From positions 1 to 27,916 of the IMG/VR virus record IMGVR_UViG_3300032193_000551: a stretch of DNA of 27,916 bases, one strand, 5' to 3'. A model generated the notes under the pieces. The model ran no database searches. It had not been told where the DNA came from and saw only the letters and a list, made by a program, of their open reading frames with translations. This document shows, one piece after another, positions 296 through 17,099 of the stretch. The position numbers and the translations under genes are program-made. This DNA is from a virus. Position 1 is the stretch's first letter; every line of letters starts with the position of its first letter.

Positions 296-323
296 ATCCT
301 ATCATACTGCCCGCGACTGTCAA
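296..323 (-). promoter_or_regulatory. Candidate sigma70-like promoter for the DUF4385-like gene
   Basis: On the minus strand a perfect TTGACA (323-318) is followed after 16 bases by TAGGAT (301-296; 4 of 6 matches to TATAAT). The -35 box overlaps the TGA stop of the oxygenase gene upstream. The start codon of the next gene is at 274, leaving room for a short leader. It sits in one of only two intergenic gaps in the window. The sequence match is seen directly; promoter activity is inference, and the weak -10 box keeps confidence low. Confidence 0.3.
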
Positions 324-916
324 CCCCTAGGCGGAAAATTCTTCCTCAGGTAGTAGTCTAATGGTGTGACTCGCCAGACTATTGACGTGCGATAGACATG
401 TGGTACGGTGGGTGCCAGTCCTCTGTGCGGATGCTTTGATGGTAGAACAATGATTCTGCCTGGTACATACTCATGCTCCTCAACAATATGCTCGCCATCT
501 TTATCTGTCAACTGGAATTGTCCACCCCATGAACTGTCCCACTCAGGGTTGGTCATCATCAGGAGTGTAATATCATTTGGATCTGCACTATCTGTGTGAG
601 ATGTACCATCAAATCCCATGTATTGCACGTTCAAACCAATCTGATTGCATAGAAAGTATGCACTGAGCACCTCTTCTAGACGCTCAAGAATATTGAAGAA
701 TGGTTCTACCTTCTCATGGCATGTATTGATTCTATTAATACCATTGCCACGTTGAAATAGTTTACATCCCAAGAGTTTATGCGATCCTTTCAACTCATAT
801 GGCCATGTAGTTCTGTTAGCAATATTATTATATGAGAGCGGGATTTCACCAATGTGCCCTGCTATTTGATGTAGATACAGTTGATCAAACTGATCGTCAA
901 GAATTTTGCATATCAT
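320..916 (-). CDS. 2OG-Fe(II) oxygenase (prolyl-4-hydroxylase-like fold)
   Basis: 198 aa. The double-stranded beta-helix iron site is readable: H107-T-D109 (in SHTDSADP) and H164 (in LPSKHPHRGLAP), followed by R176 (YRTSIVWR) where this superfamily binds the 2-oxoglutarate carboxylate. DSSWGGQFQL at 127-136 is the usual WGGxL beta-turn, and VPGRIIVLPS leads into the distal histidine. These enzymes use O2 and 2-oxoglutarate to hydroxylate protein, nucleotide or small-molecule substrates; the substrate here is unknown. No signal peptide or membrane segment is seen, so it should act in the host cytoplasm. It overlaps the upstream oxygenase gene by 20 bases, which suggests translational coupling, and is the last gene before the 45-base gap at 275-319. 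The fold and metal site are confident; the substrate cannot be read from sequence. Confidence 0.85.
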   Translation of the reverse strand: MICKILDDQFDQLYLHQIAGHIGEIPLSYNNIANRTTWPYELKGSHKLLGCKLFQRGNGINRINTCHEKVEPFFNILERLEEVLSAYFLCNQIGLNVQYMGFDGTSHTDSADPNDITLLMMTNPEWDSSWGGQFQLTDKDGEHIVEEHEYVPGRIIVLPSKHPHRGLAPTVPHVYRTSIVWRVTPLDYYLRKNFPPRG

Positions 917-1484
917 TTTGTTCAGTAATTTTGATATTATATGCTACAGAGATTCTATCTCGTGTTGATAAATTCTCCTCAACATAGTGTACAAGATGTG
1001 ATGGAAAGAAATAACCTGTACCTGGCACAGGGTCAAACTTATGCTCTAATCTAATATTAGCAAAGAACTTTGTTTGCTCTGCTTGTGATGGACCTTGATG
1101 TGGTTTCTGAATACACAGAGATCCAGAGTCCTCATCTCCCTGCAAATAATATACACCAGTCCAATGACAATCATGGACATGAGGTAGATGATATGCTCCA
1201 GGTGGATTGACATTAGCAAACATGTTACCAAGATATATTGATAACTTCTGCACTGGGTCTAAATGATTGACCACAAAATTATGAAACTCCTTGAAGATAG
1301 CAGAACTCAGTTCAGATAGTTCTGGGTATTTCTCCAGATGATTCTTCTGCCATCCTCCTCTATTTGATAGACGATCAGACTTCTCCTCGCTATCTCTCAG
1401 TTTGTAGAGATACTCGATGACTGGTTCGTTAAGTTGTTCGTAGTTGTCAAATTTGTATTCATGTACGAAATCACCAAGTATCAT
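897..1484 (-). CDS. 2OG-Fe(II) oxygenase, TIGR02466/2OG-FeII_Oxy_5-like
   Basis: 195 aa. The segment PHVHDCHWTGVYYL (101-114) matches the HxH...SGVYYL signature of the TIGR02466 / 2OG-FeII_Oxy_5 group of putative oxygenases. It is followed by GTGYFFPSHLVHYVEEN (155-171) with the distal H166, and by RDRISVAYNI with R177 as the likely 2-oxoglutarate anchor. GSLCIQKP lies between, where the family has a short strand. The metal triad is less clear than in the neighbouring oxygenases: H102, H104 and D105 are all candidates for the first two ligands. The start codon overlaps the stop of the upstream gene as ATGA, a standard coupled junction, which fixes the start at 1484. No signal peptide or membrane helix is visible. 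Substrate unknown. Confidence 0.8.
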   Translation of the reverse strand: MILGDFVHEYKFDNYEQLNEPVIEYLYKLRDSEEKSDRLSNRGGWQKNHLEKYPELSELSSAIFKEFHNFVVNHLDPVQKLSIYLGNMFANVNPPGAYHLPHVHDCHWTGVYYLQGDEDSGSLCIQKPHQGPSQAEQTKFFANIRLEHKFDPVPGTGYFFPSHLVHYVEENLSTRDRISVAYNIKITEQNDMQNS

Positions 1485-2347
1485 TCTACTCTCTCAAAAT
1501 CTATAACAACAAATGTATAAAGTTTCTTGTTTACTAACTCACCACCACTCCATTTAAATTTAATAGAAAACTGTTGGTGTACTGGACTATTTGTCCTACA
1601 ATATTCTACCTCTTCCGAGGTCAAAAGTCCAGCATCTTGCATTCTTTGGAAGTATAGATTCTTTCTATTCAAATAAGAATCAGTATTACCACCAGAAGCA
1701 TACAATTCTGATTGGAAGAATGGACTGACAAGTTCGATTGATACAGTGTCATTTACTGCATCAAATTGAATACGAATGGGTGACTTGAATGATGTGGTAG
1801 CATCTGCTTTCTCATCTTCAAACTCAGCAAAACTTAGATTAACAAAATGCTTTACTTTATCAATTTCAGGAAGATCGAAATAATCAAGAACATTAGAGTT
1901 AGGACGAAATAGTGTAACGTACTTTGATACACTACCATCAGTAGTAAAAGATACACCTTCTAGTCCAAAGTCCAATGGTTCCTGCCTAAGTTCTGTCATC
2001 TTAGCAGGTTCTTGTGTACCTAGAGCACCATATAATGCTTCAAACATATCACCTCTTAAGTTACCATAATCAAGAGAGTGATATGCATGATACGACAAAT
2101 CTTCAGCAAATGTATTATCTGCTGAAGTAATCCATAGACCAGTTGTAGATTTTAAAATAGAGTCAGGAATATATCCAATCTTAGCACGACTCTTGCAAAA
2201 CTCATAGAAATCAGTGAGTTTGTATGATACTTCCGTTACAAGTAATTCTGGTTTGATGTACTCATGTGGAATGTAACGATGATAGTTGATCATGCCACTT
2301 CCAATGACATGTTCTTCGGCACCAATGTAATGATCTTCGTATGACAT
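1481..2347 (-). CDS. Conserved-looking phage protein of unknown function
   Basis: 288 aa, acidic, without signal peptide, membrane segment or obvious repeats. I do not recognise a family. The N-terminus is rich in aromatic residues and histidine (EDHYIGAEEHVIGSGMINYH). The middle, about residues 130-185, looks like alternating beta strands, and the C-terminal half ends in strand-like segments (QQFSIKFKWSGGEL, YTFVVIDFE). No HxD...H...R iron-site series can be traced, so I do not call it an oxygenase despite its neighbours. It starts 2 bases after the stop of the small gene at 2350 and its TGA overlaps the ATG of the next oxygenase, so it is made as part of the same translation chain. A structural or enzyme-partner role is possible but not supported by sequence. 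Confidence 0.65.
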   Translation of the reverse strand: MSYEDHYIGAEEHVIGSGMINYHRYIPHEYIKPELLVTEVSYKLTDFYEFCKSRAKIGYIPDSILKSTTGLWITSADNTFAEDLSYHAYHSLDYGNLRGDMFEALYGALGTQEPAKMTELRQEPLDFGLEGVSFTTDGSVSKYVTLFRPNSNVLDYFDLPEIDKVKHFVNLSFAEFEDEKADATTSFKSPIRIQFDAVNDTVSIELVSPFFQSELYASGGNTDSYLNRKNLYFQRMQDAGLLTSEEVEYCRTNSPVHQQFSIKFKWSGGELVNKKLYTFVVIDFERVE

Positions 2348-2349
2348 GA

Positions 2350-2688
2350 TTATCTATTGTGATATTCGATACCGCCATTTGGACCATAGACTTCTGCTAG
2401 AATGTAGAAGTCTGGGTCTCCATCACTAGGATTTCTCGGAAAGTTACCAGCATAATCTTCTGCTTCATCAATTGAATCAAACTCAACAAAAATAATCTCA
2501 TTGTTTAGAAGACCAGTGAATACATCATGATGAAGAAGCATCTTGTAAGTATCATATACTTGATCTCTCTTTGCTTCATCAGTAATAGCTCGTGGTCCTA
2601 CATTACGTAGTACAAGAGTTGCTTTCTCTCGTCCAGCAATGTAGTTCTCTACAATAGTTTGATATTCAAATACCTGATGGTTGTTCAT
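2350..2688 (-). CDS. Small hypothetical protein
   Basis: 112 aa from ATG 2688, which overlaps the TGA of the upstream oxygenase gene as ATGA. A longer version would have to begin at a TTG (2706) and overlap by 22 bases, so the ATG is preferred. The protein is acidic in its second half. EIIFVEFDSIDEAEDYAGNF (about 68-87) followed by DFYILAEVYG reads as strand-helix-strand, compatible with a small alpha/beta (ferredoxin-like) fold. This is inference from the hydrophobic pattern only. No catalytic motif is seen. It lies between an oxygenase gene and the unknown gene at 1481 with a 2-base gap, so it is co-translated with them. No function can be assigned. Confidence 0.65.
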   Translation of the reverse strand: MNNHQVFEYQTIVENYIAGREKATLVLRNVGPRAITDEAKRDQVYDTYKMLLHHDVFTGLLNNEIIFVEFDSIDEAEDYAGNFPRNPSDGDPDFYILAEVYGPNGGIEYHNR

Positions 2689-3215
2689 TTTAGTTCTAGT
2701 TTCCAAGCAACAGAGATACGTAGACCAGTGAAAATCCTAGATGTTTCTTCTGCCCAATGAGGAATGATTCCTGGGAATATAATTGCCTTATTGGGTTCTG
2801 GTACAACAAAGTGGTGTTTAATACCATCATCAGTAGGAAACTTAAAACAAGTTTTGCCTCCCCATTCTACATTCCACTGATCCATAGGATAATATAACAA
2901 CGTTCGACCACGATGATTCTGAGAATCTTGATGGGGATAACCCTTCATACCAAATGTGTGACCGTTGGCGTATACACGCTCAAAGTTAAATTGGAGTCCA
3001 GTTTTTGACTCAATCTTATTTAGGAGATACTCATTAAAGAACTTGTACTTACTCAGTGACATCAACCACATAGGGATTTGATTTGTTTTAGACATATCAC
3101 TTTTATGTCCCCATGCCCACAACCCATTGTTAAGTTCTCTTTGGATTGCTTGGTGGTCTAGTTCACTGAAAAAGTTTTTATATTCTACTACATCGTCAGG
3201 ACTATATTGTGGCAT
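2685..3215 (-). CDS. 2OG-Fe(II) oxygenase
   Basis: 176 aa, a compact single-domain enzyme. The iron ligands are H95-Q-D97 (GYPHQDSQNHRG) and H153 (FPGIIPHWAEE), with R166 in GLRISVAWK as the 2-oxoglutarate carboxylate partner. WNVEWGGKTCFKF (114-126) is the typical WGG turn, and PNKAIIFPGIIPHWA is the strand leading to the distal histidine. The cytoplasmic reaction would be 2-oxoglutarate-dependent hydroxylation of an unknown substrate. The layout resembles phage prolyl-hydroxylase-like enzymes more than PiuC or TIGR02466 types, so it belongs to a different subgroup from its two oxygenase neighbours. The ATG at 3215 overlaps the TAG stop of the PiuC-like gene by 14 bases; the first residues (MPQYSPDDVVEYKNFFS) look like a normal helical N-terminus. 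Confidence 0.85.
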   Translation of the reverse strand: MPQYSPDDVVEYKNFFSELDHQAIQRELNNGLWAWGHKSDMSKTNQIPMWLMSLSKYKFFNEYLLNKIESKTGLQFNFERVYANGHTFGMKGYPHQDSQNHRGRTLLYYPMDQWNVEWGGKTCFKFPTDDGIKHHFVVPEPNKAIIFPGIIPHWAEETSRIFTGLRISVAWKLELK

Positions 3216-3843
3216 TAGCTCTAATCAAATTACATCTAATAGTTTCAAGTCTACCACGCATTGGCGCATTACCCACATCCATGAGAACTTTAGACAAGTC
3301 TACAATGATCTCACGATTGCTAGCATCATCTATCATAGAATTCATCCACCATGTAATGACACGACGCTCACCAGATGTCACAGGTTTAACTCTATGATGC
3401 AGTCCTGTGTGGTAGATTACTGCATCACCAGCATTTAATTTGAACTCCTGTGTGGTATCACCAACTTTAATTTCTAGTTCTCCACCTTCATACTCACCAG
3501 GATCGTTCAAGAATACAGTTACACTGTAATCTGTCCTCATCTGATCTAGGATAAAATTATCATAGTGCCAATCATAGTGCATCCCCTCAGTATATTTGAG
3601 GAAGTTTGGATGTGTATGACCCTTAGGCAAGAAGAGATAATTTAACTTCTGATCAGAAGCAATCTGCTTATCCATCAACTGCACCATCGATGGGTAATGT
3701 ACCTCATCTAAGATCTGTTGATTGTGCTTTACTTTCTTATCACTAGATCCAGACCAGGAACCATCAGTGAATACACAGAATTCGTAGAAATCATTAATGT
3801 TGTTCACAACCCCTTGGGGCAACATATTATAAGTGTGGATCAT
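3202..3843 (-). CDS. PiuC/YbiX-type PKHD hydroxylase (2OG-Fe(II) oxygenase)
   Basis: 213 aa. Close agreement with the PiuC/YbiX family: FLKYTEGMHYDWHYDN (81-96) with H93-Y-D95, then RTDYSVTVFLNDPGEYEGGE (103-122), LNAGDAVIYHTGLHHRV with distal H150, and VTSGERRVITWW carrying the 2-oxoglutarate-binding arginine (R160 or R161). The bacterial relatives are Fe(II)/2OG hydroxylases linked to iron uptake, but their substrate is unsettled and the phage substrate is unknown. Start: a longer frame reaches ATG 3894 but would overlap the upstream gene by 50 bases with a low-quality leader (MKSLISLTSLNSC). ATG 3843 lies one base after the upstream TAA and fits the packing seen elsewhere, so it is preferred. 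No signal peptide is seen. Confidence 0.9.
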   Translation of the reverse strand: MIHTYNMLPQGVVNNINDFYEFCVFTDGSWSGSSDKKVKHNQQILDEVHYPSMVQLMDKQIASDQKLNYLFLPKGHTHPNFLKYTEGMHYDWHYDNFILDQMRTDYSVTVFLNDPGEYEGGELEIKVGDTTQEFKLNAGDAVIYHTGLHHRVKPVTSGERRVITWWMNSMIDDASNREIIVDLSKVLMDVGNAPMRGRLETIRCNLIRANATI

Positions 3844-3844
3844 A

Positions 3845-4792
3845 TTAGTCAGTAGGCAGGAATTTAGCGAAGTTAAACTTATCAAAGACTTCATCTAACT
3901 TCAGTTCTCTTGCAAGATCTAAGATCTTTCTGTCAATAGGTCTGAAGTTAGCATCATATGTCTCAAGATAGTTAATGAGATTAAGTTGCGTTTTTGATAC
4001 GAAGTCTACGGATACTTCAAAGTCATACTTTTCAAATTGATCATCAGTAGACAAATATTCTACATCACGATTAGGGTATTTTTCAAGATACTTTCTAGGA
4101 TCGATAGGATACTTTAATGTTTGAATGAACTTAAACATTTCAAAGTTATCATCAAACTCCTCGCGTGGGTTATCAGGTAACAGATCTCTCAATCTCTGTC
4201 TCCAGGTTGCCCAATCTGCTTTCTCTCCATCATATTTGACTGGAGTATCTGGCAAGACTCTAAAATCAGAGTATAGTAGCATCTTATGGATTTCATCCAT
4301 CTTCTTGTACCACTTCTGATCGTAGTAGTAATCAAGTTGCTCTAAGTTTAATTCTCTTGCTTTCTCAAGAATCTCATACTCATGCGCTTCTTTCTGAATG
4401 ATTACAACTGTATTGATGACATCATACAATGTCTTCAGATCAGCAACATCGCCTTGCTTATAGTTGTATGGTGTCCAATAAGAAGTTTGTGTAGAGAAGT
4501 CAAACTTCATTTTCTTTCTCTGACACAAGTATTTGTCATTGTTATACAACAACAGGTGCTCAATCTCATCCTTACCAGGATCATGCCACTCAGCTGAGAT
4601 AGCAGGTAAGACTACATCATTCCATGCTTTTTCATCAATAAATGTAGTCTTACCACCAAGAGCAATACCACCGAGAGTAACTGCTTTCTCTTTGAAGTTC
4701 AGTTCCATGACAGATTCTTGGGGTCTAATAGTATTAGCCCAATACTCTCTCACCTCATCTTCGGTTGGTTGTTGATAGAAATATTCTGCCAT
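3845..4792 (-). CDS. Probable tail-fibre assembly chaperone (Phage_tail_APC-like motif)
   Basis: 315 aa, acidic, cytoplasmic, no membrane segment. Residues 169-205 read HKMLLYSDFRVLPD, then TPVKYDGEKADWATWRQ, then RLRDLLP. This matches the hallmark of Phage_tail_APC/tail-fibre assembly proteins: LLxxSDW..LPDxP......W..YRQ.LRDLP. Such proteins assist folding or trimerisation of tail fibres and are usually encoded beside them. The N-terminal part (about 30-100) looks beta-rich; the C-terminal 110 residues are helical and charged and I do not recognise them. The protein is longer than typical chaperones of this kind. It starts at a TAATG overlap with the upstream oxygenase gene and ends one base before the PiuC-like gene, so it is embedded in the oxygenase cluster. 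The motif is seen; the chaperone role is inferred. Confidence 0.6.
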   Translation of the reverse strand: MAEYFYQQPTEDEVREYWANTIRPQESVMELNFKEKAVTLGGIALGGKTTFIDEKAWNDVVLPAISAEWHDPGKDEIEHLLLYNNDKYLCQRKKMKFDFSTQTSYWTPYNYKQGDVADLKTLYDVINTVVIIQKEAHEYEILEKARELNLEQLDYYYDQKWYKKMDEIHKMLLYSDFRVLPDTPVKYDGEKADWATWRQRLRDLLPDNPREEFDDNFEMFKFIQTLKYPIDPRKYLEKYPNRDVEYLSTDDQFEKYDFEVSVDFVSKTQLNLINYLETYDANFRPIDRKILDLARELKLDEVFDKFNFAKFLPTD

Positions 4793-5445
4793 TAGGGAAC
4801 CTTGATATACCAGCCAGTCAAAATATATTTATCTTGGGTGAACACTGTATTGCCTTTATGTACATGTGTCATACTCGCTGGCCAGATACAAACTGTTCCT
4901 GCAGTAGGTTGAATTCTTCTACGTTGATACAAAAACTCAGTCTCTGCTTCGCCTTCTGGCATATCATTTAGATAGATCGCCCACACAAGTTCTCTAGCAT
5001 GGTGTCCAAATCCAGAGTTTTCATAATGCCACATGTGATAACCACCACCAGGCGGTGTCTTTTGCATCTTACAATCTTCTGAGATAAACTTATTCATCTT
5101 CAGTTGATCGTACTTTTTAATATAGTGCTGCACACATGCAGTCAGATACTGGTTTGCCTCGTAATTCAAATGCTGATTTGAATAGTTCAGCAACATAGAC
5201 TCATCTTTTCTACCAAGACTACCTTGCTTAAACTGTTGTGTGCCATCCATGAACTCCATTTCTTCTGGGTCAGGATTCTCAACCAAAGAACTTTGGGATC
5301 TAATATCTTCAAAGAATTCAATAAATTTATCACATCTAGACTTTGGCATAAAGTTAGGCCAAAGACCAATAAAATCTTTAAATTCAAACTGCGTGATATT
5401 TTCATCCTCCATCAACTCAAGAGGACGAATAGGTTGCACTGCCAT
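4792..5445 (-). CDS. 2OG-Fe(II) oxygenase with HxE iron motif
   Basis: 217 aa. The stretch GGGYHMWHYENSGFGHHAR (133-151), then LVWAIYLND, EAETEF, GTVCIWPASMTHVHKGN and KYILTGWY has the order of a phage/cyanobacterial 2OG-Fe(II) oxygenase group. The first ligand pair appears as H140-Y-E142 rather than H-x-D, the distal ligand is H194 or H196, and K206 stands where many relatives use arginine for 2-oxoglutarate. The usual GGET turn is altered to EAET. Whether HxE is normal for this group or a change in this phage cannot be told from one sequence. A Shine-Dalgarno-like GAGG lies about 7 bases before ATG 5445, after an 8-base gap from the collar gene. Its TAA overlaps the chaperone ATG (TAATG). 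Substrate unknown. Confidence 0.8.
   Translation of the reverse strand: MAVQPIRPLELMEDENITQFEFKDFIGLWPNFMPKSRCDKFIEFFEDIRSQSSLVENPDPEEMEFMDGTQQFKQGSLGRKDESMLLNYSNQHLNYEANQYLTACVQHYIKKYDQLKMNKFISEDCKMQKTPPGGGYHMWHYENSGFGHHARELVWAIYLNDMPEGEAETEFLYQRRRIQPTAGTVCIWPASMTHVHKGNTVFTQDKYILTGWYIKVP
4826..4833 (-). promoter_or_regulatory. T4-late-promoter-like octamer GATAAATA
   Basis: Minus-strand GATAAATA matches the T4 late consensus TATAAATA at 7 of 8 positions. It lies near the 3' end of the HxE oxygenase gene, about 33 bases before the chaperone ATG at 4792. T4-like cyanophages are known to use this motif for structural genes. In AT-rich DNA one such match can arise by chance, and no transcript data are available. 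Confidence 0.25.
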
Positions 5446-5453
5446 AATTTACC

Positions 5454-7160
5454 TCAGTATGCTTTAATAATATACTTGACTCGGTGGTATTTAGTCAATA
5501 GGGGAATGGTCTGTTCTGGCACCAAAGAAGGAGTTGGAATGACAACTTTAGATACATTCAATTCAAATGTTGCTTCGTTAGCAGTCAATGCCAACTCAGT
5601 TGAAGAGAAGGCGATTGTAGTTGTTTCATTCAGAGCAAGTCCACCCGCACCTGTTCCAGGTCCATTATCATTTCCCCATCCATAAACATTAGCGGCATCA
5701 CCAAAGTCAGATCCTTGTTGAATATAATGTGAGTGTGATTTTAATGTGCCAGGACTATAAACTTTTACATTCGCATCTACATTATTACACAGGACGCCAG
5801 CAGTATATCTGTTACCTCCAGGAAGACCAGGAACAGTGTTCTGAGGATCTCCAGGCCAATAGTTATTAAATGTAGCGTTAAATTCTCCACCAGGAGAAAC
5901 AACACTATTATAACCAATCTGAGGATAAGTTGTATCTCTAATATCTGTTTCACTGATACCATAGAATGCACCACCAGTAGGAGGAGCACCCCAAGGAACC
6001 CAACCAACTGGGACCTGATCTGCCTGTCCACTGATTACACTATGTTCGTGTGCAGGAACAGAAACAATGTTACTTGCAACAGGACCAATATCTGCAAAAG
6101 TATTACCAGTAATATCATATGTAATGTTACCAGTAATGTTGTCAGAACCAGACGTTACAAGAGTTCCCAGTTTAAAGAATTTACTATCATTACCACCAGT
6201 AAAACTTGTAACCGAATCAACTCTGACTATTGTATCAGCAGCACTATTATTAGCATTCCAATAATCTGTAGAAAGGAAATCTCCTACTTGGTATCCATTT
6301 CCAGGATCTAAAATCGCATCAATACGTATTATAGTATCATATGTTCCACCACCAACAGCAGATGGATATGCTTCATATGTAATTCTCATTCTACAACCAC
6401 TTCCACTACCACCAACCATGTCTTCATCTCTGGTTACAGAATCTGTTGGACCAGACAATAATTGTCCAGCATCTGCTCTATATGAATTCGCACCTAAAAT
6501 TGATGGGAAGTAAGTGTTAGAACCACCACCATCACCACCAGTTGGAGCTTGAGTTCCATTTGAATTAACATAGTCATTAGACCAGAATAAAGCAAATGTT
6601 ATTACTCCTCTAGTAGAACCTGTAGTACCACTATATACTTGTTCGTCTGGTGGATCTCCCTGGGCATCAATCTTTTTGATGTACCAGTTTCCTCCCATAG
6701 AACCAGCAGTAAAACCATCCCCAGATCCACTAGATGCTGGATCAGGAGCATTGACTGTGGTTAGAATAGGAGAAGCAGCAGAGTTACCATCTACGTTTCC
6801 AGTACCATGCAATCTTCTATTTCTGTAATTAGGAAGATTGAAAGTTCCTGAATATGTTTTGGTGTTTCCACTGATTGTTTTTGCACCATTACCACCATAG
6901 GTGTTCTTGATATTATCCCACAAATCTGGATAATCAGCAACATTTAGAGTTCTTCCATCACACTCAATCCACCCAGGGAATCTTGAATCTAAATTACCAT
7001 CTAGATCTCCCCAGTTTCCGTTCTTATCTCTAAAGACGGACATAACAGTGCCAAGAGACATGCCATCCAGTTTTTTATTTCTGACACTATACCAGTGTCC
7101 TGGTTGGATATTATCAGCACTATCATACGTAGTGACTGTCCAAGAAGTAGTATATGACAT
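5454..7160 (-). CDS. Tail-collar-domain fibre protein with large insertion
   Basis: 568 aa. Residues 36-115 hold a phage tail collar domain: LGTVMSVFRDKNGNW, FPGWIECDGRTLNVADYPDL, NTYGG and FNLPNYRNRRL. Residues from about 120 to 365 are an insertion absent from the other two collar proteins here, including DPGNGYQVGDFL (285-296), a strand motif common in cyanophage structural proteins. Two His-x-His pairs (371-373 and 476-478) resemble metal-binding pairs of T4 gp12 and gp37. The C-terminus YHRVKYIIKAY parallels YIIRAY and EYIIKF of the other collar proteins, so the three are paralogues with a shared ending. It should be a virion protein of the baseplate or tail fibre, possibly touching the receptor. 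The ATG lies one base after the stop of the 1226-aa adhesin gene, with GGAT close in front. Confidence 0.8.
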   Translation of the reverse strand: MSYTTSWTVTTYDSADNIQPGHWYSVRNKKLDGMSLGTVMSVFRDKNGNWGDLDGNLDSRFPGWIECDGRTLNVADYPDLWDNIKNTYGGNGAKTISGNTKTYSGTFNLPNYRNRRLHGTGNVDGNSAASPILTTVNAPDPASSGSGDGFTAGSMGGNWYIKKIDAQGDPPDEQVYSGTTGSTRGVITFALFWSNDYVNSNGTQAPTGGDGGGSNTYFPSILGANSYRADAGQLLSGPTDSVTRDEDMVGGSGSGCRMRITYEAYPSAVGGGTYDTIIRIDAILDPGNGYQVGDFLSTDYWNANNSAADTIVRVDSVTSFTGGNDSKFFKLGTLVTSGSDNITGNITYDITGNTFADIGPVASNIVSVPAHEHSVISGQADQVPVGWVPWGAPPTGGAFYGISETDIRDTTYPQIGYNSVVSPGGEFNATFNNYWPGDPQNTVPGLPGGNRYTAGVLCNNVDANVKVYSPGTLKSHSHYIQQGSDFGDAANVYGWGNDNGPGTGAGGLALNETTTIAFSSTELALTANEATFELNVSKVVIPTPSLVPEQTIPLLTKYHRVKYIIKAY

Positions 7161-7161
7161 A

Positions 7162-10100
7162 TTATCCGACTGTTATTGAAATGGCGACTGAAGTACCTAA
7201 TGATGCACTACTTTGTATTCTGAGACGTAAGGTCTCCCCATTATTTATTGATCCTGCTGTAACCCAGAGTCCACCATTGATCTGCATTTCTCCACCTGTA
7301 ATGGCAATTGGAGATGGTGAGGTGATACCAAATATTTGTACAACATTACTGTATATGAGAGTATTTGGTGGTTGATTATCTTTATTGATGAACGTAAATG
7401 CATCAGGTACAATATCACCAGTAGTAGTTGTTACAACTTTCCAATCATCAGATAATTGAGTTGATGGTGAATTGCCTATAGTGACTGTAGTAGAAACTTC
7501 ACCGCCAGGTTCTGTACTAGATTGTAACCTGAGTTGTAATGTACCATTAGGACCAATTGATCCAACAGTATCCCATGTGCCACCATCAACTCTTAATTGT
7601 CCAGGTGGCGTAACAATAACATTTGTTGGTACATTGATACCTGTAATGGTGAGTGCATCACTCTCAACAAATGTATTTGCAGGTTGATCAATCTTATCAA
7701 CAAAATCAAAGAAGTCAGGGTTATCATCTGCTACAGTAACGTTAGTAACATTCCAAGGAACAAGTGGACCTGTTCCAACCTGAACACCTGTATTGATAGA
7801 ATCACCAAGAACATCACTAGTAAGAACTCGTAGTCTCAATCCATCACCGTTATCAATCAACTTAGCAGCAGCAGACCACTCACCATCATTAACAGAACTC
7901 TCAGCACCATTTAATGGAACATTAACGTTACCAACAACATTAAGACCAGTAATAGTGACTTCATTACTTAAAACATAAGATTCAAGTGGAGCATCAACAA
8001 CATCTTCAAATGCAAATGTATTTGGTATATTTGCTGGTTGTACTTTCGTGGTAATAGTAAATGTACCACTTGTTACTCCAACAGCAATGGATGATGTTTT
8101 TGCTGTGGCATACAAGTTTGACGATTCCATCCTGACTTGGAGAGTATCACCACTCACTACACCAGTAATAGAATCAGATGTATATGCACCACCATTAAGT
8201 GATAACTCTGCTCCATTAGTACAGAAAGCAGTAACAGGTATATCTAATCCACTCAGAGTAACAACATTGGATTCATACATGGTGGACAATTCTGCATTTT
8301 CAACAGAATCAAAACCAAATACATCTGCAACATCATCAGGTGCTTCAACTTCTACAGTTACTTCTGCCTGAGAAAAAGCACCACCAGAAGCAACAGTCAA
8401 CGTATATGTTGTTGTTACCGCTGGAGATAGAATAGTTAGGAACTGATCTCCAACTTGTACAGTACCAATGCCTTGGTCAATTTCTGCGGTAGATGCTGTC
8501 TCATTACCATTGAATAATGTACTCCAACTTAAGACAACTGGGTCTCCTTCCTGAATAGTAGTTGATGGTGAGTCATCATTCGCTCTGAAGTATGAAATAG
8601 ATGGAGGAATTGTGAAACTAAGAATACCATATCCATTGTTATTATTGGTGCTTTGTGAAGAGAAAGCAAAATAAGCAGGATCATATTTCGATCCTCCACC
8701 ACCACCAGACGAACCACCAAAACTTTTATCAACACCAGCACCACCGCCGCCACCAGCGCCAGCGCCTCCACCACCACCGCCGCCTCCGCCGCCGTCTCCA
8801 CCACAGTTAGCACCACCGCCGCCAGTAGCAGGATTAATAGCAGCACTAGCACTAGTTCCACCACCAGAACCAGCACCATTAGTGCAGCTGCGTTCCCAGG
8901 AACCGCCGCCGCCACCGCCGCCTCCACCAGACACAGCAATCCAGGTTCCACCTAGAGATGCTCCACTTGCAGCGCCACCACCTCCGCCAGATCCTGACCA
9001 TCCACCACCTTGACTATCTCTTCCACCTGCTCCACCAGCAGCAGCACCACCGCTACCACCACTACCGCCAGGTTTGTTTCCAGGAGATCCAGAGGCACCA
9101 TTGCCTCCCTGTCCACCAATCTGTAAACTAACTGTTAAAGTATTAGCTGGTGGTAAAATTTCTAATACTTGTACTCTACCACCAGCACCACCACATCCTC
9201 CACCACCAGCATCAGATCCACCAGATCCACCACGACCAGCAGCAATAGTTAAGAATGCATTTTCTGATCCTGCTGGAATAGAAACAGTATGATTTCCTAC
9301 ACCATAGGTAAAGGTAGTTTGTGGGTTTGGAATGATGGTGTCAAAACTATATCCAGATATTGGTGCATAGAAAATAATACCATCAGGATCAGTAAAAAGT
9401 GCATTAGTAGTGTATACCCATTCTCCAGTTGAAACTACAGACCACATAGTATCTGCACCATTTGTCCATCCATATATTGTTTTAACTCCCACAGGTAAAG
9501 TTGCTAACTGTGCTGCAGTTAGTCCATTTACCAAATTAGGATACACATATCCAATCACACCACTGTATGGTTTAGGACCACCCAATGCATCTCCATCATC
9601 ATTATCGACAAGAGGAACAGTGAGAGGTGGTTGTCCAGTTGCTACACTAAATGCTTTACAAATTTCTCCTTGATCTACATATCCAGGATAAGTTACTGCA
9701 TTTGGAGGATCTCCTGCTTCATCACAGAAATGATCACCCGTTGTTGCATTATAGTAACGGTGTACTGAGATAACATTATATGTTGTTGTTATCACAGTGT
9801 CACCAGGATCTTCACGTACAATAACTACAACTCTAATGGTATCAGTAGTTGTTCCACCAGGACCAATAGCGGTGATTGTATAATCTGTTGATGTTGTAGG
9901 AGCTACAACTTGTGTGCCTGTAGCAGGAATAGCAGCACCATTTAGAGTAATACTAGTAGGTTCATCTCCAGGAGCAGCAGTAACTTGCCACGATAATGTA
10001 GTAGATCCTTCGCCTTGAATAATTACAGCAGGGTTAGATTCAAACTGAATTGTTGGTGGGTCACCAGAATCATATGAAATATAAAAATAACCATCATCTC

Positions 10101-10842
10101 TATTTTCAGGGATGTTTGATTCATCAACAATAGCACAAGTTGGAACTGCTAGATCATTATAATATCCTCCTCCACCTTGACCTGCTGCTCCAGGAATATG
10201 ATTACCTGCAAACTGAGCACCACCACCATTACCTTTAGGTACTCCACCACCACCTCCACCAGATCCACCATTAGCAGAAGTGCTACCATTACCACCAAAA
10301 CCTCCAATACCACCACCAGTAAAGTTAGTAGTAAGATCAGTTCTATATGCAGGAACTTGTCCACCATAATCAACAGCACTACCACCACATCCTCCACTAC
10401 CACCAGCAACAGCAATAACAGTACCAAGATCAACAGCAACTAGAGCGGATGCTCCGCCACCACCAGATCCACCACCAGCAGTTACCCATGTTTCTGCACC
10501 TGGCGCTTGACCTCCAGGTCCACCATCATAATAACCACTACCACCTGCAGCACCAGCATCATATCCATAATTACTAGTTCCCACTAATCCGTCATCACCA
10601 AGGTAAACAGTAATAGTTTGACCACCAATAACTCCAGGATCCAAACTTCCAGTCATATACTGCCCTTGAGGTGCAGTTTGTGGTGGAGATGCAGTTAATG
10701 GTTTTCTAGGGTCAACATAAGTTCCACCCAAAGCATTACCACCTTTCGCACCACGAAGTATAAAACTGACGTTAGTAGCATTTGCTGGAAACAAAAATGT
10801 ATGAGTTCCAGGTGTAGTAAATTCGTATGTCTGAGTTGCCAT
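7162..10842 (-). CDS. Modular adhesin: two glycine-rich domains plus four Ig-like repeats
   Basis: 1226 aa, largest of three tandem paralogues. Residues 1-260 form a first glycine-rich domain that opens like known Gly-rich tail proteins (GTHTFLFPANATNVSFILRG). Residues 263-343 look Ig/PKD-like. Residues 355-400 (VHRYYNATTGDHFCDEAG) resemble the YRYYN..TGDHFYT repeat of DUF5648-type proteins. A second glycine-rich domain spans about 510-745 and is almost pure Gly/Ser/Ala in places. Then come the shared linker (YFRANDDSPSTTI, 751-763) and four Ig-like repeats at about 839, 939, 1040 and 1144, ending SITVG. Polyglycine-rich folds are known in T-even gp38 adhesins that bind host receptors, so a receptor-binding tip is a reasonable inference. 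No signal peptide is seen, as expected for a virion protein. Start and stop overlap both neighbours tightly. Confidence 0.8.
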   Translation of the reverse strand: MATQTYEFTTPGTHTFLFPANATNVSFILRGAKGGNALGGTYVDPRKPLTASPPQTAPQGQYMTGSLDPGVIGGQTITVYLGDDGLVGTSNYGYDAGAAGGSGYYDGGPGGQAPGAETWVTAGGGSGGGGASALVAVDLGTVIAVAGGSGGCGGSAVDYGGQVPAYRTDLTTNFTGGGIGGFGGNGSTSANGGSGGGGGGVPKGNGGGAQFAGNHIPGAAGQGGGGYYNDLAVPTCAIVDESNIPENRDDGYFYISYDSGDPPTIQFESNPAVIIQGEGSTTLSWQVTAAPGDEPTSITLNGAAIPATGTQVVAPTTSTDYTITAIGPGGTTTDTIRVVVIVREDPGDTVITTTYNVISVHRYYNATTGDHFCDEAGDPPNAVTYPGYVDQGEICKAFSVATGQPPLTVPLVDNDDGDALGGPKPYSGVIGYVYPNLVNGLTAAQLATLPVGVKTIYGWTNGADTMWSVVSTGEWVYTTNALFTDPDGIIFYAPISGYSFDTIIPNPQTTFTYGVGNHTVSIPAGSENAFLTIAAGRGGSGGSDAGGGGCGGAGGRVQVLEILPPANTLTVSLQIGGQGGNGASGSPGNKPGGSGGSGGAAAGGAGGRDSQGGGWSGSGGGGGAASGASLGGTWIAVSGGGGGGGGGSWERSCTNGAGSGGGTSASAAINPATGGGGANCGGDGGGGGGGGGGAGAGGGGGAGVDKSFGGSSGGGGGSKYDPAYFAFSSQSTNNNNGYGILSFTIPPSISYFRANDDSPSTTIQEGDPVVLSWSTLFNGNETASTAEIDQGIGTVQVGDQFLTILSPAVTTTYTLTVASGGAFSQAEVTVEVEAPDDVADVFGFDSVENAELSTMYESNVVTLSGLDIPVTAFCTNGAELSLNGGAYTSDSITGVVSGDTLQVRMESSNLYATAKTSSIAVGVTSGTFTITTKVQPANIPNTFAFEDVVDAPLESYVLSNEVTITGLNVVGNVNVPLNGAESSVNDGEWSAAAKLIDNGDGLRLRVLTSDVLGDSINTGVQVGTGPLVPWNVTNVTVADDNPDFFDFVDKIDQPANTFVESDALTITGINVPTNVIVTPPGQLRVDGGTWDTVGSIGPNGTLQLRLQSSTEPGGEVSTTVTIGNSPSTQLSDDWKVVTTTTGDIVPDAFTFINKDNQPPNTLIYSNVVQIFGITSPSPIAITGGEMQINGGLWVTAGSINNGETLRLRIQSSASLGTSVAISITVG
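7165..8604 (-). repeat. C-terminal Ig-like cassette, copy 3 (in the 1226-aa protein)
   Basis: Residues 747-1226: linker module YFRANDDSPSTTI...EIDQGIG followed by four repeats of roughly 85-100 residues. Each repeat follows the pattern F.F.D..(8-12)..SN.VTI.GI......NG...NGG.W.....NG..L.LR..SS......V.IG. The same five-part arrangement ends the two paralogues upstream, at 10845-12335 and 12836-14326. Repeat n of one gene resembles repeat n of the others more than its own neighbours, which shows duplication of the whole cassette and not internal expansion. Confidence 0.85.
7242..7249 (-). promoter_or_regulatory. T4-late-promoter-like octamer AATAAATA
   Basis: Minus-strand AATAAATA matches TATAAATA at 7 of 8 positions, about 82 bases before the ATG at 7160 of the third collar gene and inside the last Ig-like repeat of the adhesin gene. 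It is a chance candidate in AT-rich DNA and is listed only because the octamer is the known late-promoter core of T4-like phages. Confidence 0.18.
8608..9315 (-). repeat. Second glycine-rich tract (low-complexity coding repeat)
   Basis: Encodes residues of about 510-745 of the 1226-aa protein, with glycine runs up to nine long. On the plus strand it appears as CCACCACCGCC-type triplets. Part of it (8740-8930) uses many GGC codons (GCC on the plus strand), which makes it locally more GC-rich than the rest of the window. The ends keep beta-strand-like segments (NHTVSIPAG, GYGILSFTIP), as expected if a Gly-rich core is inserted into a beta sandwich. Confidence 0.75.
10152..10765 (-). repeat. First glycine-rich tract (low-complexity coding repeat)
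   Basis: Encodes residues of about 27-230 of the 1226-aa protein: repeated GG-x-G and SGGGG blocks broken by short strand-like pieces (VTAGGG, VIAVAGGSG). Glycine codons here are mainly GGT and GGA (ACC and TCC on the plus strand), in line with surrounding genes and unlike the GGC-rich part of the second tract. Confidence 0.75.
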
Positions 10843-12833
10843 TATCCTATCGTAATGCTCATGGTTTTGGGCGTAGATAATGTAGGTGCAGTAAGAATTC
10901 TCAACTGCAACGTTTCACCATTGTTAATGTTGCTAGATGTAATCCAGCTACCACCATTGATTCTAAACTCTCCATTTGTAATAGTAATTGGAGATGGAGA
11001 TGTAATACCCGAAATCAAAACAGTATTACTACTGATATAGGTGCTTGGTGGTTGATCAGTCTTATCAACAAAGTAAAATGCATTTGGTATAATATCACCA
11101 GCAGTTGTGGTAAATACTCTCCAAATGTCACTCAATGATGTCAGTACACTGTTTCCAATGGTGACATTAGTATTTACCTCACCACCAGGGTCAGGACTAG
11201 ATCTCAACCTAATTTTTACTTGCTGATTGTTAATAACTGTTGTAGATGGTCCATATAATGTTGTTGCACCACTGATAGGATCAAATATAATAATTTCAGC
11301 GAGAGGATTGGTACAGACAATATTAGTGGGAACATTAATTCCTGAGATAGTTACATATTCACTCTCAACTAAACTATCTGCGGGTTGATTGATTTTATCA
11401 AGGAAATCAAAGAAATCAGGGTTATCATCTGCTACGGTGACATTGGTTACAGTCCACTCTCTTGCAGCACCATCACCAACTGTAATAGTTGTAGTTTTTG
11501 CATCACCAAGAATATCACTTGTAAAGACTCTCAACTGTATTTGTTGACCATTAAACATTGACTTAGCACCATTACTCCATGCTCCCCATGAAATACCATC
11601 ATTAATTCTGCTTTCAAACTCTGGATTACTTGGTGCAGTAACACTAGTATCACCAGTAATACCAGTAATAGTTACAGTATTACTCTCCACATAACTAAGA
11701 ATTGGAGCATCAATAACATCAATAAATTCAAAATCATTTGGAACATTATTACCAAGAGATTTTGTTGTAATATTCCATGGTGCTGATGTGGCACCAACGG
11801 TCATTTCTGTTGTTTTTAACGTTGCATTTGTAGCAGAGGAGACCATCTTTAGTCTAATTGTGTCACCATCACATACTGTTCGTGTATCAGTGGAGTAAGC
11901 ACCTCCATTAATAGAAAAAGTGGCACCATTTGTTGCAAATGCATCTTGACATACTGCTAATCCACTGATTGTAATTTCTTCAGACTCATATTCTTGTGAC
12001 AATTCAGCATTAACAATAGATGCAAAGGTAAATTGGTCTGGTTCATTATCAGGTGCTTCTACAATAACACTGACATCCTGAGTTAGTGGACCTGTAGATC
12101 CAGTGATTGATAATCTATATGTAATATCTGTTGTTGGAGCTGGTACAAGAGGAATAGTTCCAGAATCAATAGTACATCCAGGAATTAAAGTTACATCTCC
12201 AATGCCTTGGTCAATACTAGCAGTGTATGCGGATGTTTGACCATTCCACAGTGTTTCATATGTTAACGTGCAAGGATCTCCTCTTGTAATAGTAGTAGAT
12301 GGTGAATCATCATTTGCTCTAAAATATTGAATATTAGTTGGTGGATCAACTGCTACAAATGACAAGTCAACTTGATAAAAACAAGACTCATCATGAAATA
12401 AACTATCTCTGGTTGTAAAATCTACTGTTAATGTATTGGTAGTTCCAGCAGGAAGATAGAATGGTCCAGGTTGATTCTGTGTAATAGTTACAGGAGCAGT
12501 TCCACAACCTTGTCCACCACCTGACGCTGCCGCAGTATAAATCACACCACTAATTTCTGGTCCAGAAACAGACAATGTAATTGCTTCATATCCAGGGTCT
12601 TGTGCCTCACCTCTTCCAGCAAGTGCGACTGACATATCATAATTAGGTCCAGGAATAATAGTTGCAGTTGCTGTACCAGATTGTGTGCTACTATTAGATC
12701 CACCGCAGTTACTTGATCTTTCTAAGTTGAACCTAAGTCTAGTTCCTGCACCATTTCCATTGTCAGAAATGACCCATCCTCCAGATGATACGCCACTTTG
12801 AGTAGTGCTCCAAGTAATATTAACGACTGCCAT
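10842..12833 (-). CDS. Modular adhesin/tail-fibre paralogue with four Ig-like repeats
   Basis: 663 aa. The N-terminal domain (1-165) is unique to this gene: cysteine-containing and rich in Ser, Thr and Gly, without a match I recognise; WVISDNGNGAGTRLRFNLE and GYEAITLSVSGPEISG look like beta strands. Then comes the shared linker (IQYFRANDDSPSTTI at 168-182, with SIDQGIG) and four Ig-like repeats starting at about 264, 364, 471 and 582, ending SITIG. The repeats are of the type found in many bacterial surface proteins. No signal peptide is present, so this is most likely a virion appendage. It is joined to both neighbours by TAATG overlaps in which the last Gly codon (GGA) and stop form AGGATAATG. 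Role in host binding is inferred from architecture and neighbours. Confidence 0.75.
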   Translation of the reverse strand: MAVVNITWSTTQSGVSSGGWVISDNGNGAGTRLRFNLERSSNCGGSNSSTQSGTATATIIPGPNYDMSVALAGRGEAQDPGYEAITLSVSGPEISGVIYTAAASGGGQGCGTAPVTITQNQPGPFYLPAGTTNTLTVDFTTRDSLFHDESCFYQVDLSFVAVDPPTNIQYFRANDDSPSTTITRGDPCTLTYETLWNGQTSAYTASIDQGIGDVTLIPGCTIDSGTIPLVPAPTTDITYRLSITGSTGPLTQDVSVIVEAPDNEPDQFTFASIVNAELSQEYESEEITISGLAVCQDAFATNGATFSINGGAYSTDTRTVCDGDTIRLKMVSSATNATLKTTEMTVGATSAPWNITTKSLGNNVPNDFEFIDVIDAPILSYVESNTVTITGITGDTSVTAPSNPEFESRINDGISWGAWSNGAKSMFNGQQIQLRVFTSDILGDAKTTTITVGDGAAREWTVTNVTVADDNPDFFDFLDKINQPADSLVESEYVTISGINVPTNIVCTNPLAEIIIFDPISGATTLYGPSTTVINNQQVKIRLRSSPDPGGEVNTNVTIGNSVLTSLSDIWRVFTTTAGDIIPNAFYFVDKTDQPPSTYISSNTVLISGITSPSPITITNGEFRINGGSWITSSNINNGETLQLRILTAPTLSTPKTMSITIG
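10845..12335 (-). repeat. C-terminal Ig-like cassette, copy 2 (in the 663-aa protein)
   Basis: Residues 167-663. Mosaic resemblance: the linker (SIDQGIG) and repeat 3 (VADDNPDFFDF) are closest to the 1226-aa paralogue. Repeat 2 (FESRINDG, then GAW) is closest to the 699-aa paralogue. The repeat 1-2 junction (NNVPNDFEF) differs from the PA-IPNTF form shared by the other two. Confidence 0.85.
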
Positions 12834-14932
12834 TATCCTATTGTAATACTAACGGTTTTATCTGTACTTACTACTGCTGGACTTATCATTCTAAGTTTTA
12901 CAGTATCTCCATTACTTACATTACCTGTAAATGCCCATGCACCACCATTAACAGATGCTTGACCATTGGTAACATTAAATGGAGATGGTGATGTAATACC
13001 TTGGATTATAATAGTATTACTCTCAACATATGTATTAGGGACTTGATCGTCTTTATCAATAAAGTAGAATGGATCAGGTATAATATCACCAGATGTAGTT
13101 GTAGTAATTCTCCATGTGTCTGATAGACTTGCATTGACAGAATTACCAATCGTGACAGTTGTTTCTACTTGACCAGCAGGATCAGGACTAGATGTTAGAC
13201 GAACTGATATTGTCTGATTATTAGTAATAGTTACAGGAGATGGATTATATGGTCCACCATCGACAGAAATAGTAGCACCATTTGATGTTGATACTAATGT
13301 TGGAACATTAATACCTGTAATAGTAAGTGTATTGCTGTCAATTGGAGTTGATGGTGGTTGGTCTACCGCATCAGTAAATTCAAAGTAGTCTGGTACACTA
13401 TCAGATACAGTTTGATTAGTGACACTCCACGATGCAGGAGCACCTGCACCAACCGTAATAGTTGTAGTCTTCGTATCTCCTAAAATATCACTAGTAAGAA
13501 CTCTTAATTGCAACTTCTGTCCATTTGCAATAGTTTTAGGATCTGCATTCCATGGTCCCCACCCAGTTCCATCATTAACTCTACTCTCAAAACCAAATAA
13601 AACTGCACTAGGAGCGGTTACAATAGCGTCAGTAGTAATTCCAGTAATAGTAACTTCATTGCTCTGCACATAAGATTGCAATGGAGCATCTATAACGTCA
13701 TTAAATGTAAATGTGTTTGGTATTTGTGCAGGTTCAGATTTAGTTGTAATCTTGAATGTAGTGGTATAACTACCAATTGTTACTGATGCAGTTTTTAGCG
13801 TTGCAAACAATGCAGATGACTGCATCCTTAATTGTAAACTCTGTCCGTTACCAATTGTTCCAGCAGTTGTAGTAAAACCACCACCATTAATGGACATCTG
13901 TGCTCCATTAGTAACAGAAACAGGAACAGCAACTTCTAATCCACTAATTGTTACTACATTACTAGAATATACTTGTCCCAGTTCTGCTTCTGTGATGGAA
14001 GAAAAAGTAACTGGGTCTGGGTCATTATCAGGGACCAGCATTTTAATGGTAATGTCTCTGGTTAATATGCCAGAATTACCATTAACTTTTAATCTATATG
14101 TTGTCTCTGCTGATGGACCAGGGTTTAGAGTATAACTACCACTCAAAAGACTTCCAGATGGAATAGAATAAATTTGCGTCTCTGTGCCACCATTTACAAG
14201 GTAAATCTGTCCACTAGTAGCCCCTTGGAAATTTCCTAATTGTGTGCTCCAAGTAAATGTTATTGGATCCCCAGGAATAATACTATGGGTAGGGAAATCA
14301 TCATTTGCACGGAAATATTGAATATGTGTTGGAACCTCACCATAGATACGTATTCTAGAAATAGCATATCTATCACCAGCATTTACATTCTGTTCATATA
14401 CACCACCACTACCAGCAAATTCTGGTTGAGCGACACTATAAGCATAAAACTCCCACAAGAATAATCCACGATTTGCAGCAGGAATTTGTACAGTTACAGT
14501 AAACCAATTTCCGCCACCCTGAACATCTGGAAATGTATATCCACCATCTCTACCAGAATATGCGACAAGTGTTGGTGCAGTGCTACCACCACTAGAACAC
14601 TTAAGATATAGAGATTCTCCATTATTGTTAGGTCTCTCTCCACCATTATAATCATCACCAACAATAACATCAATGATCATGTACTCCATAGAGGTAGTAT
14701 TCATCAACCATTGAGCAGACCTGTTGACAACGTAGAAGGTACTGCCAAATGTACCAAAACTTAGATGCTTTGTACCAACGTTGTTTTGAAATCCACCAAG
14801 TTCTCCAGTTCCACAAGCACCAGAAACTCCATAACAACTATTATAGATAGCACAACCATCCAGATAATCATTTACTCCATCAAAGTCCCAAGATCCTTGC
14901 CCTGGTAGAAGTGTGTAGATTAATTCTGCCAT
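12833..14932 (-). CDS. Modular adhesin/tail-fibre paralogue with unique N-terminal domain
   Basis: 699 aa, first of the three tandem paralogues in transcription order. The N-terminal domain (1-198) is unlike those of the others: it contains WDFDGVNDYLDG, a cysteine-bearing stretch (CAIYNSCYGVSGACGTG) and predicted beta strands (YMIIDVIVGDD, NWFTVTVQIP, RYAISRIRIYGE). This could be a jelly-roll or lectin-like carbohydrate-binding domain, but that is only inference. The shared linker begins at HIQYFRANDDFP (203-214), followed by four Ig-like repeats starting near 304, 404, 513 and 619 and ending VSITIG. No signal peptide is seen. The gene begins 2 bases after the stop of the short collar protein and its TAA overlaps the next ATG. 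Probably a tail-fibre component exposed to the host. Confidence 0.75.
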   Translation of the reverse strand: MAELIYTLLPGQGSWDFDGVNDYLDGCAIYNSCYGVSGACGTGELGGFQNNVGTKHLSFGTFGSTFYVVNRSAQWLMNTTSMEYMIIDVIVGDDYNGGERPNNNGESLYLKCSSGGSTAPTLVAYSGRDGGYTFPDVQGGGNWFTVTVQIPAANRGLFLWEFYAYSVAQPEFAGSGGVYEQNVNAGDRYAISRIRIYGEVPTHIQYFRANDDFPTHSIIPGDPITFTWSTQLGNFQGATSGQIYLVNGGTETQIYSIPSGSLLSGSYTLNPGPSAETTYRLKVNGNSGILTRDITIKMLVPDNDPDPVTFSSITEAELGQVYSSNVVTISGLEVAVPVSVTNGAQMSINGGGFTTTAGTIGNGQSLQLRMQSSALFATLKTASVTIGSYTTTFKITTKSEPAQIPNTFTFNDVIDAPLQSYVQSNEVTITGITTDAIVTAPSAVLFGFESRVNDGTGWGPWNADPKTIANGQKLQLRVLTSDILGDTKTTTITVGAGAPASWSVTNQTVSDSVPDYFEFTDAVDQPPSTPIDSNTLTITGINVPTLVSTSNGATISVDGGPYNPSPVTITNNQTISVRLTSSPDPAGQVETTVTIGNSVNASLSDTWRITTTTSGDIIPDPFYFIDKDDQVPNTYVESNTIIIQGITSPSPFNVTNGQASVNGGAWAFTGNVSNGDTVKLRMISPAVVSTDKTVSITIG
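12836..14326 (-). repeat. C-terminal Ig-like cassette, copy 1 (in the 699-aa protein)
   Basis: Residues 203-699. Same layout as the other two cassettes, but the linker lacks DQGIG (it has VNGGTETQIYS), and repeat 3 begins VSDSVPDYFEF in place of VADDNPDFFDF. The repeat 1-2 junction (PAQIPNTFTF) is shared with the 1226-aa paralogue. Confidence 0.85.
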
Positions 14933-17051: not shown

Positions 17052-17099
17052 GTTTTTTCGTCGATTTTTGGCGGAAAAATTTATTCAGAATATATGGAA
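17052..17099 (-). promoter_or_regulatory. Intergenic gap after giant gene; weak late-promoter-like box
   Basis: This 48-base gap is the longest non-coding stretch in the window. On the minus strand AATAAATT (17085-17078) matches the T4 late core TATAAATA at 6 of 8 positions and lies 27 bases from the ATG at 17051. A-runs and T-runs (CGACGAAAAAAC, AAATTTTTCC) are present, but I find no stem-loop stable enough to call a terminator. Its placement in front of a whole block of fibre genes makes it the best place to look for a late promoter. Confidence 0.25.

Follow-up and report, generated by a model that had tools for sequence, protein, structure and literature searches.

The 27,916-nucleotide stretch of viral DNA analysed here (IMG/VR record IMGVR_UViG_3300032193_000551, positions 1 to 27,916; hereafter the window) carries a tail-fibre operon whose distal part encodes five 2-oxoglutarate (2OG)-Fe(II) oxygenases around a tail-assembly chaperone. 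Our analysis suggests that phages of this type chemically modify their own host-binding fibres. The real core of the system is one oxygenase with an HxE motif together with the chaperone, rather than the number five. We read the cassette as a putative tail-fibre maturation module, and hydroxylation of the fibres is the best explanation, with about an even chance of being right. Gene order and the closest relative identify the window as a fragment of a T4-like cyanomyovirus (Kyanoviridae). Among named phages, Synechococcus phage Sf-CH1b is the closest; it is collinear in this region and has 68% identity in the chaperone and 74% in the HxE enzyme. The oxygenases are called H (the HxE enzyme), F, E, B and A, and D and C are the other cassette proteins. 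All main genes of the window are on the minus strand.

The position of H carries the argument. H (4792..5445) begins 8 bp after the stop codon of the last Collar-domain fibre gene, and the chaperone gene (3845..4792) follows it. A scan of IMG/VR with an H profile confirmed 594 stretches, of which the best 80 were kept and combined with isolates to give 90 H orthologues. Except for the isolates, this sample was picked by the oxygenase and not by the chaperone, and it leans towards relatives of the H of the window. The chaperone directly follows H in all 87 orthologues with at least 400 bp of downstream sequence, at a distance of -34 to +10 bp. The open reading frame (ORF) upstream of H has at least 356 codons in 70 of the 71 cases in which one was detected, usually about 1000, and most of these ORFs encode fibres. 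The same fibre–H–chaperone order is found in the annotated isolates S-PM2, Syn1, S-CAM1, S-CAM4, ACG-2014e, ACG-2014h, Sf-FP1, S-RSM4 and Sf-CH1b, and the cassette is conserved across many genera of Kyanoviridae. In S-PM2 and Syn1 the order continues with F and E after the chaperone. H is also the best-conserved cassette gene, with at least 45% identity to the window copy in nine isolates; the identity of the chaperone to its window copy is 20–30% in isolates other than the closest ones.

A reading of the sequence alone had placed the oxygenases next to a tail-assembly chaperone and downstream of fibre and adhesin genes, and both placements were borne out. The product of 3845..4792 matches phrog_4697, 'tail assembly chaperone', with an E-value of 1.3e-56. 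Five of 11 members of its family match PF16778 (Phage_tail_APC), the best at 2.5e-13, and the window copy itself scores 16.7 bits against a cut-off of 26.6. Collar-domain fibre genes lie directly upstream in the same operon. In a set of 16 complete genomes, three Collar genes are present in each of the 10 that have the chaperone and none in the other six. Because the Collar genes track the chaperone in this way, the chaperone belongs to the collar-type fibre and the oxygenases are optional additions. The small protein D (2350..2688; phrog_4883) accompanies the chaperone even at loci without any oxygenase; of 77 chaperone loci with enough coverage, 75 have it. Its 118-codon gene probably starts at about 2688 according to orthologue alignments. 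D gave no convincing match in Pfam or the PDB, and homology between D and the chaperone was not detectable. The C-terminal ending ...P.L..Y..VKYIIKAY of the collar fibres (5454-7160 and 14935-17051 in the window, and homologues) is conserved with and without oxygenases, and is a candidate site for chaperone binding or trimerisation.

The chaperone was found in 59 phage records. S-WAM2 and Sf-FR1 have the chaperone and D without H at the locus, and an IMG/VR scan with the S-WAM2 chaperone as a single protein gave 62 more loci, mostly without H; seven of these have H in the same place. Altogether H is present at 92 of 148 chaperone loci and absent from 56, counts that are not independent because of the shared ancestry of the loci. 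In the 77 loci with enough downstream sequence, the pattern is H-F-E-D-C in 47, D only in 21 and another in nine. The genes are nested: F was seen only together with H, E only with F and C only with H. The core of three oxygenases (H, F and E) is found in 50 of these 77 loci. The version with five oxygenases is confined to close relatives of the window (seven loci, including the isolate Sf-CH1b). Since the full set recurs in seven loci and the core in 50, the combination is not due to chance. However, tandem runs of oxygenases are common in this phage family, with eight genes in one S-RSM4 cluster, and five genes together are therefore less remarkable than the strict order of fibre, HxE enzyme and chaperone. 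The sequence-only reading had proposed one dedicated chemistry for all five enzymes. This was not upheld: the conserved set consists only of the HxE enzyme, then the PiuC type, then one WGG type, and B and A are lineage-specific. That reading had also named independent movement of the oxygenases as one possible refutation, and the outcome was divided. Chaperone and fibres also occur without an oxygenase, and 2OG genes elsewhere in cyanophage genomes lie away from fibres, but the cassette HxE gene kept its place beside the chaperone in every orthologue that could be examined.

Runs of five to eight different 2OG oxygenases are found elsewhere, at 3735-10598 of locus L100 (S-RSM4, 88.7-95.6 kb) and 10341-14407 of locus L098 (P-RSM4). 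A tail-fibre gene of 8.7 kb lies a short way upstream of the S-RSM4 run, and the P-RSM4 run comes after a fibre and several hypothetical genes and has one member annotated as leprecan-like.

The properties of H point to a peptidyl hydroxylase. H matches PF13640 (3e-8), and a profile search of the PDB returned only prolyl 4-hydroxylases (P4Hs; 2e-7). The AlphaFold model, like the other models built from alignments with rows from the window and IMG/VR loci only, is a prediction; it has a mean predicted local distance difference test score (pLDDT) of 86.7 and the P4H-type double-stranded beta-helix fold. All 50 PDB matches listed for it are prolyl hydroxylases (best Z 18.5, root-mean-square deviation (rmsd) 3.1, 192 aligned residues by VIA-align), including PHD2 (Z 18.5), the Pseudomonas putida P4H (18.3) and an algal P4H with a (Ser-Pro)5 peptide (17.7). 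Prolyl hydroxylases head the Foldseek list as well, with 5c5t, the collagen prolyl hydroxylase of a chlorella virus, in second place. The active-site residues H140, E142, H196 and K206 are each 100% conserved in 98 sequences, and R79, D81, K126, R151, W155 and R177 are among many further invariant residues, in keeping with a specific substrate. In H the lysine lies ten residues after the distal histidine, which is the arrangement of collagen P4H. H lacks the HxD carboxylate ligand of P4H and has the HxE instead, invariant in the same 98 sequences; we therefore term it P4H-like and not a canonical P4H. Other enzymes of the 2OG type with HxE include clavaminate synthase and VioC. Because the fold and profile matches are prolyl hydroxylases, the substrate of H is likely to be peptidyl, with proline as the first candidate; that the peptide lies within a fibre we infer from gene order alone. 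Bacterial homologues of H are few and their contexts unrelated.

The other four oxygenases were likewise confirmed as ORFs on the minus strand, at the coordinates that the sequence-only reading had given for all five, and have Pfam or NCBIfam support; the claim of distinct motif sets also held: pairwise identities are 18-29%, and profile searches separate the subfamilies. F (3202..3843) is a PiuC/YbiX-type (PKHD) enzyme. It exceeds the curated cut-off of the PKHD-type model NF003974 (150.9 against 143 bits; 3.6e-44), stays below the cut-offs of the other PKHD sub-models, and matches PF13640 (1.7e-16) and the PDB entries 3dkq (4e-22) and 9qn1 (PiuC; 2e-20). Orthologue alignments indicate that F probably starts at 3843 and not at 3894 as in the earlier ORF. 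Its active site (H110, D112, H167 and R177, numbered from the 3894 start) is 100% conserved in 75 sequences. E (2685..3215) is a WGG-type, FlmC-like enzyme with an invariant HxD...H...R site; H95, D97, H153 and R166 are 100% conserved in 61 sequences. Its PF13640 match (4.6e-5) is below the Pfam cut-off, and its match to the FlmC-type 2OG model is 4e-17. A (320..916; PF13640 6e-7) is a second WGG-type enzyme, found only in the seven loci of close relatives, with the putative site H107, D109, H164 and R176 or R182 from these seven sequences. Judged by their sequences, E and A are related to the FlmC family and not members of it, with 62.8 and 23.4 bits against an NCBIfam cut-off of 240. B (897..1484) is a lineage-specific addition of the TIGR02466/PF13759 type (PF13759 1.5e-14; TIGR02466 70.7 bits against a curated cut-off of 62.5). 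It keeps H102 and H166, and HxH replaces HxD, so that the window copy lacks the carboxylate ligand; the metal site may thus be unusual, possibly with three histidines, in an alignment that mixes more than one subfamily. A reading of H, F and E as pseudoenzymes was rejected because their catalytic residues are invariant.

The FlmC resemblance bears on the idea that a sugar or small molecule, made or modified by the oxygenases, is later attached to the fibres, as in an FlmC-like glycan role. Besides the match of E and A to the model of that name, related phages have carbamoyltransferase-type genes close to oxygenases. However, a glycosyltransferase was not found in the window cassette and the fold of the HxE enzyme is of the peptidyl hydroxylase type, which makes this idea hardly credible. 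The label 'DNA endonuclease V', used in phrog_274 and in RefSeq phage records, is a misannotation that has been propagated: the genes so named match the 2OG oxygenase domain. This concerns 2685-3215 of the window, 16390-17386 of locus L010, 24214-24702 and 26549-27034 of locus L099, and 7219-7698 of locus L100. The profiles phrog_2297 'DNA endonuclease' and phrog_3531 'ferrochelatase' likewise overlap 2OG oxygenases.

Several results weigh against a fibre-specific role, and they led us to narrow the claim. The 2OG superfamily is abundant, with 7-17 genes per genome in many contexts in eight fully studied genomes. In a placement test on these eight complete genomes, 37 of 87 2OG genes were near fibre-like genes compared with 25 by random shift (p 0.001), a weak excess per gene. 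Counted per cluster, 17 of 47 were near fibre-like genes compared with 23 by random shift, a null that favours long genes, which is no enrichment. As the enrichment is weak per gene and absent per cluster, we make no general claim that 2OG oxygenases are linked to fibres. In a tree, the HxE genes of the cassette fall into about one clade (support 85/90) within the T4-GC 240 family, other members of which lie elsewhere in the genomes, and the claim is restricted to this clade for that reason. Two rows labelled 'non' within the clade are contigs that end just after H. The tree suggests that the HxE clade entered the fibre–chaperone pair about once and then stayed, and that its relatives elsewhere did not. 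Descent from about one entry means that the order could be shared inheritance of a useful but unrelated neighbour. Paralogues of H adjoin CP12, gp3/uvsY or neck genes, so that this type of enzyme can work outside the cassette.

These results favour in part a conserved neighbourhood without a functional link, in which a low-turnover operon end gathers oxygenases by tandem recruitment. The oxygenase runs elsewhere, such as the eight-gene S-RSM4 cluster, fit this explanation, as do the lack of enrichment per cluster and the B- or F-like 2OG types that lineages lacking the HxE enzyme have at some remove downstream of D. The HxE gene, however, lies upstream of the chaperone, inside the fibre–chaperone pair and not at the operon end, and it is the best conserved of the set. 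We consider this explanation unlikely.

A comparison of sister lineages also speaks against dependence of the fibre on H. Over its whole length the last fibre differs little between sisters with H (L147, L163) and those without it (L157, L162, L148), and no feature tracking HxE presence was found in the last fibres of these sisters. The Pro/Gly composition of the fibres differs between the groups with and without HxE, but this is confounded by ancestry. Since the last fibre is so similar in sisters without H, it can exist and evolve without this enzyme. This may reflect adaptive tuning of the fibre, a target in another protein of the operon, or the absence of a functional link.

Another target could lie in the host. 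Late in infection the oxygenases might modify host proteins (a translation factor, a ribosomal or a surface protein) and have no more in common with the fibre operon than its late expression. A P4H-fold enzyme can bind a host protein: the solved complex of a bacterial P4H with EF-Tu (4iw3, Z 18.0) is a close structural neighbour of H, which is a further point against a fibre substrate, and many similar oxygenases lie at unrelated places in these genomes. A host target leaves unexplained both the position of the HxE gene between fibre and chaperone and the nesting of H, F and E, and we regard it as rather unlikely.

Published readings of cyanophage oxygenases place them in metabolism or DNA repair. 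Sullivan et al. 2010 proposed roles in 2OG/NtcA signalling and DNA repair (PMC3037559). Later reports count 9 (PMC9146016), 10 (PMC9964418) and, for S-SCSM1, 24 (PMC9602691) 2OG oxygenase genes per genome; they call them auxiliary metabolic genes (AMGs) and repeat the metabolic or repair readings. In the accessible part of the S-SCSM1 report, the virion proteome names no 2OG enzyme among the virion proteins, as expected for non-structural enzymes, and S-SCSM1 lacks this chaperone type. For the cassette, such roles would mean enzymes that alter the 2OG level and nitrogen signalling through NtcA, or that repair DNA. The HxE and PiuC-type enzymes, however, group with peptidyl or PKHD hydroxylases, the cassette has no DNA-repair gene, and bulk consumption of 2OG requires neither five divergent enzymes nor a fixed position. 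These roles are very unlikely for the cassette. No published account of the fibre–oxygenase–chaperone order was found in the open-licence literature, where such oxygenases are taken to serve auxiliary metabolism or DNA repair.

Fibre hydroxylation as proposed in the sequence-only reading is thus retained in part: the distinct oxygenases, the neighbouring chaperone, the conserved cassette and the P4H-like leading enzyme make peptidyl hydroxylation reasonable, and the fibre is the presumed substrate. In this mechanism the cassette genes would be expressed late together with the fibres. H, using 2OG, Fe(II) and O2, would hydroxylate a residue in a fibre or adhesin chain as the chaperone and D hold it, with proline as the first candidate, followed by Asn, Asp or Lys. 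F and E, found only where H is present, might act on the same or neighbouring fibre chains. Because relatives without the modification keep the same fibre type, it probably is an adaptive tuning (of stability, of receptor binding or as a handle for a further step) and not a requirement for folding. Few unexplained 'metabolic' genes are as frequent in marine phages as those for 2OG oxygenases, and for at least one clade of these the fixed fibre–hydroxylase–chaperone order points to a concrete class of substrate that can be tested. If the proposal is true, the host range of cyanophages would depend partly on fibre chemistry that needs oxygen, iron and 2OG, and it would be a mistake to annotate the HxE cassette clade as genes of host metabolism or DNA repair.

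Protein C (1481..2347) is predicted to have a prenyltransferase-like fold, which was unexpected in a phage tail operon. The window copy gave no profile match; C is placed in the phrog_4851 family, with a family match for 29 of 36 members. Five beta-beta-alpha repeats make up the AlphaFold model (pLDDT 85.2), and the PDB structures closest to it are ABBA prenyltransferases (Foldseek 1.9e-5 to 7fhf; Z 14.1 to 7fhe over 214 residues, rmsd 3.5). All 50 VIA matches listed are of this type (Z 14.1 to 11.8), which points to a PT barrel in the predicted model. BFVD holds predicted structures of phage homologues of C that match as well; as predictions, they are not independent experiments. No strand lysine or arginine is conserved above about 70% in a divergent alignment of 53 sequences, and the expected basic cluster for diphosphate binding was not seen; conservation leans against catalysis. 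A line of post-translational modification in which hydroxylases, chaperone and PT-barrel protein decorate the fibres, by hydroxylation and possibly then prenylation or conjugation, and so tune host binding beyond the amino-acid code, is in our view distinctly doubtful.

The operon is gapless, with gaps of 9 bp or less throughout from 17051 to 320, in the order two collar fibres, three adhesin-like proteins, the last collar fibre, H, chaperone, F, E, D, C, B and A. The collar fibres are 15807..17051 (PF07484 2.5e-12), 14935..15807 (PF07484 9e-9) and the gp12-like 5454..7160 (PF07484 1.8e-10; phrog_4924 2e-80), which ends in ...KYIIKAY directly before H. Between them are three adhesin-like products without a Pfam match: a repeat-containing structural protein (12833..14932) whose Sf-CH1b orthologue is called an IPT/TIG-domain protein, a second one (10842..12833) with repeats that resemble those of its neighbours, and a glycine-rich, repeat-containing protein (7162..10842). 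Upstream is a giant fibre/adhesin gene of the fibre operon (17100..27914), with 3604 residues in the window and its 5' end cut; its Sf-CH1b orthologue is annotated as a short tail fibre protein. A is followed by a 45-bp gap with a sigma-70-like site (323-296) and then by a DUF4385 gene. The T4-type late promoter TATAAATA does not occur within the window, and a promoter scan of the window gave nothing above shuffled sequences. In other records, a 2OG oxygenase gene lies beside a tryptophan-halogenase (PrnA-like) gene at 597-2556 of locus L095 (pelagiphage HTVC008M) and 7965-10088 of locus L244 (a gammaproteobacterial contig by its sequence), and HTVC008M has genes annotated as the curli parts CsgF, CsgG and CsgB (7562-9557 of locus L099).

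The cassette can be compared with five known systems. It shares with the cyanophage 2OG-Fe(II) oxygenase AMGs (PMC3037559, PMC9602691) the superfamily and T4-GC clusters 240, 28, 166 and 101; there they are read as metabolic or repair genes, and linkage to fibre and chaperone and nesting are not described in the accessible passages. Phage tail-assembly chaperones (PF16778/phrog_4697) have the same D(W/F)..LPD...R..LRD-type motif and the same position after the fibre operon. Unlike them, the window chaperone has an extra N-terminal part, the companion D and an oxygenase between itself and the fibre. C resembles the ABBA/PT-barrel prenyltransferases (NphB, AmbP1, KgpF and PatF) in predicted fold but has about 10% identity to them and no conserved basic cluster was found. 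F fits the PiuC/YbiX PKHD hydroxylases in family model and PDB structures, but it is phage-borne, lies downstream of a tail chaperone and has shorter forms of about 160 residues in S-CAM4 and ACG-2014e. The P4H family (Bacillus P4H 3itq/5hv0, chlorella virus vCPH 5c5t, P. putida P4H 4j25/4iw3 and PHD2) shares with H the fold, the architecture of a peptidyl hydroxylase and the H...H...K ligands. H differs from it in the fully conserved HxE and in its operon context between fibre and chaperone, and vCPH is a precedent for a viral enzyme of this family.

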